NCBI RefSeq assembly: GCF_002224365.1
Contig: NZ_CP022437.1
Location: 3,472,001-3,536,000, forward strand
Source of the DNA: Virgibacillus necropolis
Lineage (GTDB): Bacteria; Bacillota; Bacilli; Bacillales; Amphibacillaceae
Direction: 5' to 3'
DNA length: 64,000 nucleotides
Positions 25,427-55,810 of the stretch are shown one piece after another. The notes below the pieces were generated by a model that worked only from the letters and a program-made list of their open reading frames with translations, was not told where the DNA came from and searched no databases. Made by a program: the position numbers and the translations under genes. How positions within the stretch are numbered: the stretch's first letter is position 1; each line of letters begins with the position of its first letter.

Positions 25427-26674
<1,248 letters not shown>

Positions 26675-46956: not shown

Positions 46957-48159
46957 ATGGCACATTCTAGTCAAGAAATCATCGATCAAACGCAGGAATT
47001 TGGAGCAAAGAACTATCATCCCCTTCCTGTTGTAATATCAAAAGCTGAGGGTGTATGGGTAGAAGACCCTGAAGGTAACCGCTACATGGATATGTTAAGT
47101 GCATATTCTGCTGTTAATCAAGGGCATCGTCACCCTAAAATCATTGATGCGTTAAAAAAACAAGCTGATGCTGTTACATTAACATCTCGCGCATTCCATA
47201 ATGATCAACTTGGTCCATGGTATGAAAAAGTTTGTAAACTAACGAACAAGGAAGCAGTATTGCCAATGAACACTGGTGCTGAAGCTGTTGAAACGGCTAT
47301 CAAAACAGCTAGACGTTGGGCTTACGATGTAAAAGGTGTTGCAGAAAACAAAGCTGAAATTATCGCATGTGAAGATAACTTCCATGGCCGCACGATGGCA
47401 GCTGTTTCTCTATCATCAGATCCGGAAAATCAACGCGGGTTTGGTCCATTACTTCCTGGAATTAAATTAATTCCGTATGGGGATGTTGATGCACTAAAGG
47501 CAGCAATCAATGAAAATACAGCTGGTTTCTTATTTGAACCAATTCAGGGTGAAGCTGGAATCAATATCCCACCTGAAGGATTTTTAAAAAAGGCGCTAGA
47601 CGTTTGTAAGGAAAATAATGTATTGTACATTGCTGATGAAATTCAAGCTGGTCTTGGCCGAAGCGGTAAAATGTTTGCATGTGACTGGGAAGATGTGACA
47701 CCAGACATTCTTATTCTAGGTAAAGCACTTGGTGGCGGAGTATTCCCTATTTCATGTATCGTAGCTAATAAAGATATCCTTGGTGTTTTTAACCCTGGAT
47801 CACATGGTTCAACATTCGGTGGAAATCCATTAGCTTGTGCTGTTTCTGTCGCTTCACTGGAAGTTTTAGAGGAAGAGCAACTAGCCGAACGTTCACTCGA
47901 ACTTGGTAATTACATGATGGATGAATTAAGAAAAATTGATAATCCACTGATAAAAGAAGTTCGCGGTAAAGGATTATTTGTTGGTGTAGAACTTACAGAA
48001 GCAGCACGTTCCTATTGTGTCGAGCTAAAAGAAAGAGGATTACTGTGTAAAGAAACACATGAAAATGTCATTCGTTTCGCCCCACCACTAGTAATCAAGA
48101 AAGATGATTTGGATTGGGCAATTGGACATATTAAAGAAGTTTTAAAAGGAATCGAGTAG
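46957..48159 (+). CDS. rocD: Ornithine aminotransferase
   Basis: PLP-dependent class III aminotransferase (400 aa) that converts ornithine and 2-oxoglutarate to glutamate semialdehyde and glutamate. [13 protein letters not shown] (PLP phosphate), [29 protein letters not shown], and the Schiff-base lysine in [18 protein letters not shown] precedes the ATG. The last two codons and the TAG stop (ATC GAG TAG, 48151-48159) are intron bases: joining the flanks gives AAA GGA TAA, so the ancestral protein ended ...EVLKG. Confidence 0.95.
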
Positions 48160-48188
48160 GAGGGAGTGATTAACTCCCGACCTCTCAC

Positions 48189-48220
48189 ACCACCGTACGT
48201 ACCGTTCGGTATACGGCGGT
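48189..48220 (-). ncRNA. Group II intron domain V, copy 1
   Basis: ACCGCCGTATACCGAACGG...TACGGTGGT hairpin with the AGC-like catalytic stem and GAAC-type tetraloop region, 6 bases after the stop of the reverse transcriptase. Domain VI (CGGGAGTTAATCACTCCC) follows. Confidence 0.88.
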
Positions 48221-48225
48221 TTCAT

Positions 48226-49485
48226 TTAAGTCCAACGCATTGTTTGATATCTAGAAGATAGGCTCTTAAGCCCTTGGCTCAACCAGTATTGGTCGCCAAG
48301 GGCTTTATTCAAGATTGGGCTTTTGGCTATTCGCCAAAATGCCTTTCTTGTATTTGCCCACTCCCAAGCTTTCCCTGGTTTGATTCCTTGTTTCATTAAG
48401 TTCTTATATTTCGTTTTGACTTTCTTCCATTCCTTCCAACGAACCATGCGGAGTCGTCTCCTAATCCAGCTATCTAGCCTTTGAAATATGGAGGGTGTAT
48501 CTGCGAGTTGGTAATAACCAAGCCACCCGACCAAGTATCGATTTAACTTTACGATTCTTTCCTCCATGGCAATTGATTTCTTTCTAGAAGTTAACGCTCT
48601 AACACGCTGTTTAAAACGTTTGATACTCTCCTTTGAAACCCGTACTTTCGGGTGCATCTTGTTGACTGTAAAAGAAAATCCAAGAAACTTACGTTTCCAA
48701 GGTCGGTCTACTGCACTTTTCTGTTCATTCACTTTCAATTTGAGCTTTCTTTCAATAAATGTAATAATGCTTTCCATTAAGCGTAAACCCGCTCTTTTAG
48801 ATTGAACATAGACATTACAATCGTCCGCGTAACGGACGAAATGAAGTCCTCTATCTTCTAATTCTTTATCCAATTCATCGAGGACAATATTAGAGAGTAA
48901 AGGACTTAATGGTCCACCTTGCGGAGTTCCTTCTGTATTAGGTCGAACAAGACCATCATCCATGATTCCTGCTTGGAGGTATCTACGGATGAGCTTTAAC
49001 ACCCTTGGGTCTTCAATTCTTTTACTAAGTGTACGCATCAGTCTATCATGGTTTACTTTATCGAAGAATTTCTCCAAATCCATATCAATAACCCAGCGGT
49101 ATCCTTGCTTGATGTAACTTCTAGCTTGTCTCACCGCATCATGTCCTCGCTTGTTAGGGCGGAAGCCATAACTCTGTTTCGAGAATGTTGGGTCATATAG
49201 TTCTGTGAGAACCTGTGCAATTGCTTGTTGGATAAATCGATCTGTCACAGTAGGGATACCTAGTTTCCTCTTCCCACCGTTTGGTTTCGGGATTTCGACA
49301 CGACGGACAGGTTGAGGATAGTAGAAACCTTCTTCCACTTGTTCGCGTAGGGTAGACCAGTGTTCCATGATATGCGCTCGTAGATTTTGTACGGGCATTT
49401 CATCTACACCATGGCTCCCTTTATTACGTTCCACACGTTCTAATGCGCGGATTAAGTTTTCTCGGGACAGGATTCGTTCCAACAT
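48226..49485 (-). CDS. ltrA: Group II intron reverse transcriptase/maturase, copy 1
   Basis: Intron-encoded protein (419 aa). RT domain with TDRFIQQAIAQVL, FSKQSYGFRPNKRGHDAV, WVIDMDLEKFFDKVNHDRL, GTPQGGPLSPLLSNI and the active site YADD (FVRYADDCNVYV). The C-terminal maturase (GIIM) region holds LNRYLVGWLGYYQLAD. No HNH endonuclease domain follows, as expected for class C. ATG 49485 has AGGAG nine bases before it. Confidence 0.96.
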   Translation of the reverse strand: MLERILSRENLIRALERVERNKGSHGVDEMPVQNLRAHIMEHWSTLREQVEEGFYYPQPVRRVEIPKPNGGKRKLGIPTVTDRFIQQAIAQVLTELYDPTFSKQSYGFRPNKRGHDAVRQARSYIKQGYRWVIDMDLEKFFDKVNHDRLMRTLSKRIEDPRVLKLIRRYLQAGIMDDGLVRPNTEGTPQGGPLSPLLSNIVLDELDKELEDRGLHFVRYADDCNVYVQSKRAGLRLMESIITFIERKLKLKVNEQKSAVDRPWKRKFLGFSFTVNKMHPKVRVSKESIKRFKQRVRALTSRKKSIAMEERIVKLNRYLVGWLGYYQLADTPSIFQRLDSWIRRRLRMVRWKEWKKVKTKYKNLMKQGIKPGKAWEWANTRKAFWRIAKSPILNKALGDQYWLSQGLKSLSSRYQTMRWT

Positions 49486-50040
49486 GATATTCAACTCCTA
49501 CGTGAATCGCCCGTTCTTCTTGTGTGGCAACAGCTTTCAGCCCTTCTAATGTCCCCCACGGGCTTCACCGTTTCCTTCATTAGGAAGGTTACCTTGTTTC
49601 TGCTTCATTAAGTGTTGCGTACGCAAAGTGGCGATTCTTCTTAAATGATTCAGCCCTTCCTAGATATTCTAGAATTATCTAGTACTATGGCTTCGGCTGA
49701 CTTCTGATAGTTCAGCGAACATTTCCATGCTCGGTTACGCAAAGAGTTGCGCATACCTATCAGACCTCCCCAGGTAAGAACGTAATCTTTCCCTCCATCT
49801 ATCTGCTTCATTTACTTTGTGCAACCTTTGGTAGAAAGGACTTCGTTTTGTTTAGCAAACTCATCCAATTGCACCTAGCCTTCTATGAAGTTCGTGTTCC
49901 TCAGACCGGAGGTTTGCCGCTCGCTTCCTTCAGATTCCACGTCACCATGGACACCCTTGCGTTAAGCTAACTGTTACTTCCACCTTCACAGTTCGGGACT
50001 TGCACCCTATAGATTACGCCCATGCTGGGCGCACTAACAA

Positions 50041-50073
50041 AAAGCGAAACTAGCTAAATGCTAGTTTCGCTTT
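50041..50073. terminator. Ancestral shared terminator of rocD and the DUF418 gene; intron target
   Basis: Perfect 14-bp stem AAAGCGAAACTAGC / GCTAGTTTCGCTTT, loop TAAAT. On the minus strand it ends the DUF418 gene; on the plus strand it followed the original rocD stop (TAA at 50035-50037) by three bases before the intron separated them. Confidence 0.9.
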
Positions 50074-50081
50074 TCTTCATT

Positions 50082-51269
50082 TTACAAAGACTCTTCCCTA
50101 TTTACTCTTTTCCGAAATGCTTGCTTTTTATTATAGGTAAGCCCCCTCCAAATCCATTCCAATGGTCCAAACTGATAATGATTAAACCACCATCTACTTG
50201 CAAATACCTGTAACGTATAAACAATCACAACGATGATGACGCCTTCTAAAGGGCTAACCGTTCCATATAGGGCGAACCCGACACCATAAAATAAGATGAA
50301 CATAATAACCGATTGAGAAATGTAATTGGTCAAAGACATACGTCCAACATGAACAAAAGGTCTAATTACTTTCATCCCCAGGTCTGTTTTTGCTAGTAAA
50401 CCAATAGAAAAAATGTAAAATAGTGCTGATGCTGATCCACCAATATTATCCTGAATAAAGGAAAACCAAATAGGGTTTCCGTATGCATACGGACCTAACT
50501 TTAAGACCAAGAAAAACACGAGACTAATAAACCAGCCGAATTTCAATACCTTTTGGAATCGGTCTAAATCATGTAGCCACCTTTTCCGTGCAATAAACAT
50601 TCCCACTAAAAATAACGGTAATAACGTACTAGTTAAAAATAGAAAAGAGATTCCACCATTAGCATACTGCCAGTCCGCATAATTCTGAGACCATATTTCA
50701 GTAAAACTATTACTTTGATAGCTTACTATGGCCTGTTTAATTGCCTCTTGATCAACAAAACCAAGATACTGACGGAACTCATATAAGTACATGGTGTAAT
50801 AGGTAACGCTTGCTCCCATTAATAAAACGGCCCATGTTACCAACGTTTTATTTTTCACCTTTACAAAAAGTAATAAAAGCAATCCTATAGTTGCATAGGA
50901 TAACAGAATATCACCATACCAAATCAAAAATGCATGTACTAGGCCAAAGCCTATCAAGATGAGCATTCTACGGAATAATATCCTGTATACCGGGCCGCCT
51001 TTTTTAACTAGACTATCAATCATGATCTGAAATCCAAAACCAAATAAAAGCGAAAATAATGTATAAAAGCTGGCTTGGAAAAAGACATCAATAATCCCTT
51101 GCAATAGATGATTAATTGGCCCAGGCCAGGCTTCTCCTTCTCCACCATGCATAAAATATGGTGCTGAAAAAGCACCTACGTTGACCATAAATATACCAAA
51201 GATAGCAAATCCTCTTGCTGCATCTATCCAAAGCAGTCGCTTGCTTTCCCTTATTGGTTCTGCGTTCAT
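50082..51269 (-). CDS. DUF418-family membrane protein
   Basis: 395 aa, about ten membrane helices. The N-terminal RLLWIDAARGFAIFGIFMVN and the C-terminal FVHVGRMSLTNYISQS ... FGPLEWIWRGLTY are diagnostic for the DUF418/YxaH-like acyltransferase-related family. Substrate unknown. It is the gene whose terminator was targeted by intron copy 1. Confidence 0.88.
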   Translation of the reverse strand: MNAEPIRESKRLLWIDAARGFAIFGIFMVNVGAFSAPYFMHGGEGEAWPGPINHLLQGIIDVFFQASFYTLFSLLFGFGFQIMIDSLVKKGGPVYRILFRRMLILIGFGLVHAFLIWYGDILLSYATIGLLLLLFVKVKNKTLVTWAVLLMGASVTYYTMYLYEFRQYLGFVDQEAIKQAIVSYQSNSFTEIWSQNYADWQYANGGISFLFLTSTLLPLFLVGMFIARKRWLHDLDRFQKVLKFGWFISLVFFLVLKLGPYAYGNPIWFSFIQDNIGGSASALFYIFSIGLLAKTDLGMKVIRPFVHVGRMSLTNYISQSVIMFILFYGVGFALYGTVSPLEGVIIVVIVYTLQVFASRWWFNHYQFGPLEWIWRGLTYNKKQAFRKRVNREESL

Positions 51270-53926: not shown

Positions 53927-55810
53927 ATCGAGTAGGAGGGAGTGATTAACTCCCGACCTCTCACACCACCGTACGTACCGTTCGGTATACGGCGGTTTCA
54001 TTTAAGTCCAACGCATTGTTTGATATCTAGAAGATAGGCTCTTAAGCCCTTGGCTCAACCAGTATTGGTCGCCAAGGGCTTTATTCAAGATTGGGCTTTT
54101 GGCTATTCGCCAAAATGCCTTTCTTGTATTTGCCCACTCCCAAGCTTTCCCTGGTTTGATTCCTTGTTTCATTAAGTTCTTATATTTCGTTTTGACTTTC
54201 TTCCATTCCTTCCAACGAACCATGCGGAGTCGTCTCCTAATCCAGCTATCTAGCCTTTGAAATATGGAGGGTGTATCTGCGAGTTGGTAATAACCAAGCC
54301 ACCCGACCAAGTATCGATTTAACTTTACGATTCTTTCCTCCATGGCAATTGATTTCTTTCTAGAAGTTAACGCTCTAACACGCTGTTTAAAACGTTTGAT
54401 ACTCTCCTTTGAAACCCGTACTTTCGGGTGCATCTTGTTGACTGTAAAAGAAAATCCAAGAAACTTACGTTTCCAAGGTCGGTCTACTGCACTTTTCTGT
54501 TCATTCACTTTCAATTTGAGCTTTCTTTCAATAAATGTAATAATGCTTTCCATTAAGCGTAAACCCGCTCTTTTAGATTGAACATAGACATTACAATCGT
54601 CCGCGTAACGGACGAAATGAAGTCCTCTATCTTCTAATTCTTTATCCAATTCATCGAGGACAATATTAGAGAGTAAAGGACTTAATGGTCCACCTTGCGG
54701 AGTTCCTTCTGTATTAGGTCGAACAAGACCATCATCCATGATTCCTGCTTGGAGGTATCTACGGATGAGCTTTAACACCCTTGGGTCTTCAATTCTTTTA
54801 CTAAGTGTACGCATCAGTCTATCATGGTTTACTTTATCGAAGAATTTCTCCAAATCCATATCAATAACCCAGCGGTATCCTTGCTTGATGTAACTTCTAG
54901 CTTGTCTCACCGCATCATGTCCTCGCTTGTTAGGGCGGAAGCCATAACTCTGTTTCGAGAATGTTGGGTCATATAGTTCTGTGAGAACCTGTGCAATTGC
55001 TTGTTGGATAAATCGATCTGTCACAGTAGGGATACCTAGTTTCCTCTTCCCACCGTTTGGTTTCGGGATTTCGACACGACGGACAGGTTGAGGATAGTAG
55101 AAACCTTCTTCCACTTGTTCGCGTAGGGTAGACCAGTGTTCCATGATATGCGCTCGTAGATTTTGTACGGGCATTTCATCTACACCATGGCTCCCTTTAT
55201 TACGTTCCACACGTTCTAATGCGCGGATTAAGTTTTCTCGGGACAGGATTCGTTCCAACATGATATTCAACTCCTACGTGAATCGCCCGTTCTTCTTGTG
55301 TGGCAACAGCTTTCAGCCCTTCTAATGTCCCCCACGGGCTTCACCGTTTCCTTCATTAGGAAGGTTACCTTGTTTCTGCTTCATTAAGTGTTGCGTACGC
55401 AAAGTGGCGATTCTTCTTAAATGATTCAGCCCTTCCTAGATATTCTAGAATTATCTAGTACTATGGCTTCGGCTGACTTCTGATAGTTCAGCGAACATTT
55501 CCATGCTCGGTTACGCAAAGAGTTGCGCATACCTATCAGACCTCCCCAGGTAAGAACGTAATCTTTCCCTCCATCTATCTGCTTCATTTACTTTGTGCAA
55601 CCTTTGGTAGAAAGGACTTCGTTTTGTTTAGCAAACTCATCCAATTGCACCTAGCCTTCTATGAAGTTCGTGTTCCTCAGACCGGAGGTTTGCCGCTCGC
55701 TTCCTTCAGATTCCACGTCACCATGGACACCCTTGCGTTAAGCTAACTGTTACTTCCACCTTCACAGTTCGGGACTTGCACCCTATAGATTACGCCCATG
55801 CTGGGCGCAC
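53927..55810 (-). mobile_element. Group IIC intron, copy 2 (1884 bp)
   Basis: Same length, orientation and, as far as I can see, same sequence as copy 1. It is inserted directly after the yjzC terminator (GGCCATCC/GGATGGTC then TTTTTATTA). Both insertion sites share T-run-RTTA on the 5' side and T-C/G-CTTTTA on the 3' side. Confidence 0.93.
54002..55261 (-). CDS. ltrA: Group II intron reverse transcriptase/maturase, copy 2
   Basis: 419 aa, identical in sequence to the copy at 48226-49485, with RT and maturase domains intact (YADD present) and no endonuclease domain. Both copies could therefore support mobility. Confidence 0.96.
   Translation of the reverse strand: MLERILSRENLIRALERVERNKGSHGVDEMPVQNLRAHIMEHWSTLREQVEEGFYYPQPVRRVEIPKPNGGKRKLGIPTVTDRFIQQAIAQVLTELYDPTFSKQSYGFRPNKRGHDAVRQARSYIKQGYRWVIDMDLEKFFDKVNHDRLMRTLSKRIEDPRVLKLIRRYLQAGIMDDGLVRPNTEGTPQGGPLSPLLSNIVLDELDKELEDRGLHFVRYADDCNVYVQSKRAGLRLMESIITFIERKLKLKVNEQKSAVDRPWKRKFLGFSFTVNKMHPKVRVSKESIKRFKQRVRALTSRKKSIAMEERIVKLNRYLVGWLGYYQLADTPSIFQRLDSWIRRRLRMVRWKEWKKVKTKYKNLMKQGIKPGKAWEWANTRKAFWRIAKSPILNKALGDQYWLSQGLKSLSSRYQTMRWT

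Follow-up and report, generated by a model that had tools for sequence, protein, structure and literature searches.

A class C group II intron inserted antisense at the rocD stop codon of Virgibacillus necropolis, and a candidate antisense terminator in its maturase gene

Results

Structure of the rocD locus

We analysed a window of 64,000 nucleotides of the Virgibacillus necropolis genome (contig NZ_CP022437.1, positions 3,472,001 to 3,536,000), in which the ornithine aminotransferase gene rocD and a convergent gene for a DUF418 membrane protein flank a group II intron that lies antisense to rocD. The following features (window coordinates) are referred to throughout:

46957..48159, + strand: rocD, ornithine aminotransferase (TIGR01885, NF003145); original coding part 46957-48150
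48151..48159, + strand: new last codons of rocD, ATC GAG TAG, the complement of the intron 3' end
48151..50034, - strand: group II intron copy 1, class C (IIC), 1884 nt (identical copy 2, Rfam domain V/VI and domain I models, GTGCG 5' end)
48151..48221, - strand: intron domains V and VI (Rfam RF00029, 45.8 bits; gathering score 40)
48226..49494, - strand: intron-encoded protein (IEP; reverse transcriptase/maturase), 422 aa (ORF, RVT_1, GIIM, TIGR04416)
48268..48305, + strand (that of the rocD transcript): conserved hairpin, candidate antisense terminator, within the C-terminal codons of the IEP, followed by UAUUCAAG
48321..48339, + strand: second, weaker terminator-like hairpin, 7 pairs
49851..49854, - strand: EBS1, 5'-UAAA-3' (alignment and covariation over 93 sites)
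50035..50037, + strand: original rocD stop codon TAA, now past the intron; its complement TTA is the end of IBS1
50040..50074, both strands: bidirectional terminator-like hairpin of the rocD/DUF418 interval, the intron's insertion signal (-22.5 and -23.0 kcal/mol)
50082..51269, - strand: DUF418 membrane protein, convergent with rocD
53927..55810, - strand: group II intron copy 2, identical, 3' of another terminator-like hairpin

Both intron ends are set by the two identical copies of 1884 nt (48151-50034 and 53927-55810), beyond which the flanks share just 1 nt in the 3' exon and 3 nt in the 5' exon; the second copy thus fixes the ends to the base. The 5' end, GTGCG, conforms to the group II GUGYG, two Rfam domain-I models match within the intron beside the domain V/VI match, and RVT_1 and GIIM are the sole Pfam families found in the IEP at E 0.001, an endonuclease domain being absent at that threshold. 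The class C assignment, made earlier in a sequence-only reading of this stretch, agrees with the Rfam matches, the 5' end and the two protein domains. Both copies are inserted directly behind a terminator hairpin and T-run, as are most of the relatives' copies (judged by eye, uncounted). When the whole genome (a single contig of 4.34 Mb) was searched at the DNA level, two full copies and one 3'-end remnant were found, and the identity of the two full copies suggests recent movement. The remnant (L169, genome positions 2439397-2439575) comes from a related intron, is 5'-truncated and comprises about 180 nt of the 3' end, with domain V and a decayed hairpin region, 77% identical to the window's intron over 182 columns. 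The full copies lie in direct orientation, 5776 bp apart, and homologous recombination between them would remove DUF418, a 346-aa ORF and an MFS transporter. Head-to-tail tandem arrays of one class C intron, with many junctions N-masked, were seen at several of the Bacillus massiliglaciei loci L113-L119 and L124-L127. Elsewhere in the window there is a T-box leader at 25433-25613 (Rfam, 109.7 bits).

The intron is lodged exactly between the GGA and TAA codons of rocD. Joining the flanks (...TTA AAA GGA and TAA CAAAAAG) gives an intron-free rocD that ends in ...EVLKG-TAA, and the flanks together with the identical copy confirm the earlier claim that the rocD stop was the TAA at 50035-50037, read as AAA GGA TAA on joining. 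RocD is complete and carries two additional residues, Ile-Glu, followed by TAG. As had been proposed, these are lent by intron domain VI: the present ORF (46957-48159) ends in ATC GAG TAG, in which TAG is the complement of 5'-CUA in the intron 3' end CCTCCTACTCGAT. We take the A of this 5'-CUA to be the branch-point adenosine, following the usual geometry of domain VI. On the + strand, the complement of the intron 3' end (48151-48173) contains stops in all three frames within 23 nt, so that a convergent gene cut by such an intron would be stopped at once; a second type of intron 3' end (CCTATCTCAA) likewise yields TAG in frame 0. The bidirectional hairpin at 50040-50074, which lies 3' of the TAA and folds on both strands, is now 1.9 kb from the end of rocD, also as read earlier.

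A search for rocD over 61 genomes gave 30 loci: that of the window and 29 others, the best matches. Relatives had been expected to end in EVLKG followed by TAA. Gly-TAA occurs at the same column in 6 of the 29, three of them with ...KG-TAA; the same-genus genome ends in KAK-TGA. A RocD naturally ending in GIE without an intron, which would have spoken against a gain of residues, was found in none of these 29, and the intron ends had no match in the 29 loci. In the same-genus genome KAK-TGA is followed by a hairpin and then by a convergent DUF418 gene (77% identical), and a convergent DUF418 adjoins rocD in 11 of the 29 relatives, whose loci reach only 1.5 kb past rocD. The empty site is thus a conserved convergent gene pair.

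Target choice of the intron

EBS1 was taken as the four nucleotides that directly follow TGC in a domain-I loop. Its sequence, UAAA, pairs with the IBS1 sequences GUUA (copy 1) and AUUA (copy 2) at positions -1 to -3, position -4 being unpaired in both. To build the site table, 122 intron copies with both ends were reduced to 93 sites by dropping 29 (7 duplicates, 2 with a short 5' exon, 20 tandem or N-containing). EBS1 and IBS1 are paired at -1, -2, -3 and -4 in 91, 92, 92 and 75 of these 93 sites, which include several copies of single introns, against 42, 67, 45 and 73 with shuffled exons; counted once per distinct intron, the pairing holds in 63, 64, 64 and 53 of 65. The excess at -1 to -3 indicates that three positions are specified, here UUA, the complement of the TAA stop codon. 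The proposal that the T-run plus TTA was the target therefore finds its basis in the pairing of EBS1 UAAA with TTA and in the covariation of EBS1 and IBS1 over the 93 sites.

TTA stands at the end of the site in 22 of the 93, and rocD alone among all 93 sites has an ORF of at least 80 aa that stops exactly there. This count of one reflects what the loci show, since ORFs below 80 aa were unlisted and some loci have little 3' flank, and it leaves aside three ORFs of 80-99 aa past the junction (L071, L103, L134). A convergent ORF of at least 100 aa stops within 25 nt of the junction at 14 of the 93 sites, rocD included; 12 of the 13 others have Pfam families, and none of the 13 has lost its stop to the far side of the intron, the stop directly abutting the junction in four. 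A special rule of stop-codon targeting is unsupported in view of these 13 intact stops, and the rocD insertion belongs to the rare extreme of what class C introns are known to do and calls for no new rule of targeting. Other sites with a lost convergent stop were also considered and rejected: at L142, L105 and L121 ORFs of at least 100 aa cross the junction, which have no Pfam match, look like antisense noise and are left uncounted. Copy 2 was dismissed as a stop replacement, as no ORF of at least 80 aa ends at its TAA and the MFS stop lies 158 nt before the junction; the TTA at this copy is explained by EBS1.

A conserved hairpin in the maturase gene

On the strand of the rocD transcript, the hairpin at 48268-48305 starts 118 nt inside the rocD/intron junction. 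The region 48260-48325 folds at -28.3 kcal/mol, a value equalled by none of 200 shuffles, and has a stable GC-rich stem. In the window's copy the helix is interrupted and the U-tract weak (GGGCUUUAUUCAAG; CUUUAUUC), and a strict scan for terminator-like hairpins did not pick up this intron and 19 others of 58 on the antisense strand.

The stem at 48268 recurs in relatives with compensating changes, despite coding for the C-terminus of the IEP. After 7 of the 122 copies with a short or N-containing IEP were set aside, the remaining 115 were clustered to 58 distinct IEPs: a core set of 47 at least 64% identical to that of the window and a mid set of 11 at 42-47%. In the core set (n=47) none of the other windows, of 102 along the IEP, folds on average as strongly on the antisense strand as codons 395-411, with a mean of -22.8 kcal/mol against -17.1 in synonymous column shuffles (z -10.3); the sense mean is -20.5 kcal/mol (z -9.8). 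These and the following hairpin tests count related sequences as independent, so that the p-values are indicative only. Of the 752 cells that make up the 16 pairs, 566 are Watson-Crick; the shuffles give 505 (sd 6; highest 529 in 3000 shuffles), and sliding the partner by 1-3 nt lowers the number of Watson-Crick cells to 115-305. One Leu codon varies together with the codon eight further on (n=47): CTT occurs with Gln CAA in 18 IEPs, CTC with Arg CGA in 12, CTA or TTA with Leu CTN in 6 and CTC with CAA in 8 (others 3), and in the combination CTC/CAA the antisense strand alone can form a G-U pair. Up to 24 changes of pair state were counted on a tree from which the hairpin codons had been left out; independent-contrast tests of single pairs on this tree gave no significance, too few pairs being supported. 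The Gly codon is GGG in 41 of the 47 core IEPs, against 17% use across these IEPs.

We compared each IEP with a null in which codons were redrawn from its own usage, all of 20 draws having to be beaten. This was the case for 42 of 47 core, 10 of 11 mid and 11 of 27 phylum-level IEPs (27 of 29 phylum-level loci had a full-length frame), and the hairpin in the tail is the strongest of the whole IEP in 43/47, 10/11 and 23/27, respectively. Its sequence differs between clades and its place is nearly the same: the distance from the end of the hairpin window to the IEP stop is 34-44 nt in 41 of 47 core IEPs and 16-26 nt in 9 of 11 mid IEPs, and at the phylum level 32-44 nt in 14 of 27 and 70-94 nt (a second hairpin) in 12 of 27. 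Some phylum-level relatives (e.g. L171, L176, L197) have a strong hairpin at the place of 48321-48339. Among other group II IEPs, used as controls and assigned to other classes by 27-45% identity rather than by typing, 5 of 38 beat the null and the tail hairpin was the strongest in 5 of 38; these come from 40 loci in 100 genomes (38 with a full-length frame) without de-duplication, and two that passed, L061 and L233, look like copies of one element. We further chose by hand 10 plasmid introns, class C by similarity only, from 60 of 861 records. All three from Lactobacillales beat the null, one of them with GGCCTAGTTTTTGTTT, and under the same null the hairpin was not detected in the seven IEPs from Gram-negative plasmids (6 Pseudomonadota, 1 Bacteroidota). 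Among the Lactobacillales plasmid loci, L244 has an antisense hairpin that resembles a textbook terminator (GGCCUAGUUUUUGUUU), and the antisense hairpin of L242 is 9 kcal/mol stronger than its sense hairpin. What can be said most safely is that the class C introns of Bacillota maintain a hairpin in their IEP gene.

Strand preference of the hairpin

In the core set 72 G-U pairs were counted on the antisense strand (expected 87, ratio 0.83) and 26 on the sense strand (expected 44, ratio 0.59), and the log ratio of the two is lower than in any of the 3000 shuffles. Other mismatches number 88 against an expected 116 (0.76), so that antisense G-U is barely better tolerated; as sense G-U is the most strongly depleted, the strand signal is chiefly an avoidance of sense G-U. 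The antisense fold is the stronger one by 3.0 kcal/mol in the core set (p 4e-6; for the strongest hairpin in other parts of these IEPs the difference is 0.9), by 2.0 kcal/mol in the mid set (p 0.02) and by 1.4 in the phylum set (p 0.2, not significant). In the 9 nt past the helix, U averages 3.5, 4.9 and 3.4 on the antisense strand in the core, mid and phylum sets (background 3.05, 3.32 and 2.54) and 1.9, 2.9 and 2.1 on the sense strand, and at least five U in the nine positions past the full helix are found in 7 of 47 core, 8 of 11 mid and 8 of 26 phylum-level IEPs. The strict scan accepted 38 of 58 introns on the antisense strand and 2 of 58 on the sense strand. The hairpin has so far been detected only in Bacillota, a host group said to rely chiefly on intrinsic termination (available part of PMC8919778). 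An antisense intrinsic terminator is the best fit to the strand asymmetry, the U-leaning flank, this host group and a class of introns that inserts behind terminators.

Discussion

The sequence and the comparison of sites support a course of events in which a class C intron reverse-spliced into the T-run behind the bidirectional terminator between the convergent genes rocD and DUF418, guided by the pairing of EBS1 UAAA with UUA, the complement of rocD's TAA. The insertion put 1.9 kb between rocD and its old stop, in whose place ATC GAG TAG, contributed by the complement of domain VI, now ends the gene. A polymerase leaving rocD would now enter the intron antisense and meet the stable hairpin of the maturase gene about 110 nt past the new stop. 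This hairpin may act as an antisense intrinsic terminator that the class C introns of Bacillota maintain, in which case convergent transcripts would end near the 3' end of the intron, and rocD RNA would perhaps end 150-190 nt past its new stop rather than 1.9 kb on. Termination there could save the host gene from a long tail of no use and keep RNA complementary to the ribozyme from being made. Judged from sequence evidence, this whole account, from EBS1-guided insertion and the replaced stop to the internal hairpin as antisense terminator, is in our opinion slightly on the probable side.

A hairpin at this place might instead act in the sense RNA, where it could have a structural or regulatory role at the 3' end of domain IV, e.g. 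in shielding domain V/VI from ribosomes or from the ORF loop. Sense folding is nearly equal (z -9.8 vs -10.3), the hairpin window ends close to domain V, 34-44 nt before the IEP stop (41/47 core), and the hairpin is undetected in most other group II IEPs, all of which would suit such a role. However, sense G-U pairs (26 of 44 expected) are more depleted than antisense ones (72 of 87), U past the helix is commoner on the antisense than on the sense strand in all three groups, and the antisense fold is the stronger one in the core and mid groups, the difference being non-significant in the phylum set. Furthermore, the hairpin was not detected in 7/7 Gram-negative relatives, which should need the same ribozyme plan, and we regard a sense role as rather unlikely, though it is the most serious of the alternatives. 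That the hairpin is simply a by-product of the maturase sequence, nucleic acid being unselected, appears very improbable. The motif ALGxxYWxxxGLK is nearly palindromic, and synonymous shuffles still fold at -17.1 kcal/mol, which shows that residues and column codon usage give much; yet codon choice adds to it (Gly GGG in 41/47 vs 17%), pairs of codons or residues covary, and other clades have hairpins of different sequence at nearly the same place.

The sequence-only reading had suggested that rocD transcripts may run antisense through the whole intron to 50040-50074 and could pair with the ribozyme. The old bidirectional hairpin is indeed 1.9 kb away and the internal U-tract is weak in this copy, but on rocD's strand the first 190 nt of the intron hold the antisense of domain V, the strong conserved hairpin and a second one, and Rho could perhaps also act, as the new mRNA tail is untranslated. 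Since the intron carries a candidate built-in antisense terminator, a read-through of 1.9 kb becomes less likely; the conserved hairpin 118 nt inside the junction may end rocD RNA, and transcription across the whole intron, which we consider improbable, is not the likeliest outcome.

An antisense intrinsic terminator at the end of the maturase gene might, on the comparison of IEP genes, be a more general feature of class C introns in Bacillota: a guard, rebuilt with a different sequence in each of several lineages, against transcripts arriving from the far side, that would replace the terminator taken from a convergent gene and keep antisense RNA off the ribozyme. We put this forward tentatively, the chances for and against it being nearly balanced. 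Class C introns are thought to spread by doing little harm. If the generalization is true, restored termination for the convergent neighbour would help to explain how these introns occupy sites only a few bases from the stops of other genes (14/93) without obvious cost, and a protein-coding sequence would be constrained in its codons by a terminator on the opposite strand.

Class C introns were reportedly found inserted after intrinsic terminators by Robart et al. in 2007. Insertion of this kind is cited in the available parts of PMC8919778 and PMC4424553, in which an antisense hairpin in the IEP gene is not mentioned, and the titles and abstract openings of the literature matches listed do not describe an antisense terminator within a group II intron. 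The intron at rocD resembles known class C introns in its hairpin and T-run target, its short EBS1/IBS1, its 422-aa IEP and in that no endonuclease domain was found, and differs from them in that its 3' exon begins inside a convergent coding region, by which the stop was displaced. Azotobacter groEL is reported to carry in its termination codon a sense-oriented group II intron whose splicing restores the stop; both introns are inserted at the stop codon of a housekeeping gene, but the one in rocD is antisense and cannot be spliced from rocD RNA. Insertion sequences, e.g. IS10 and IS200, have terminators that keep out impinging transcription, and the intron described here may be another mobile element that limits transcription from its neighbours. 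Unlike in those elements, however, its candidate terminator would stop transcripts that enter from the 3' end, and it is encoded on the other strand of the C-terminal codons of the element's own protein.
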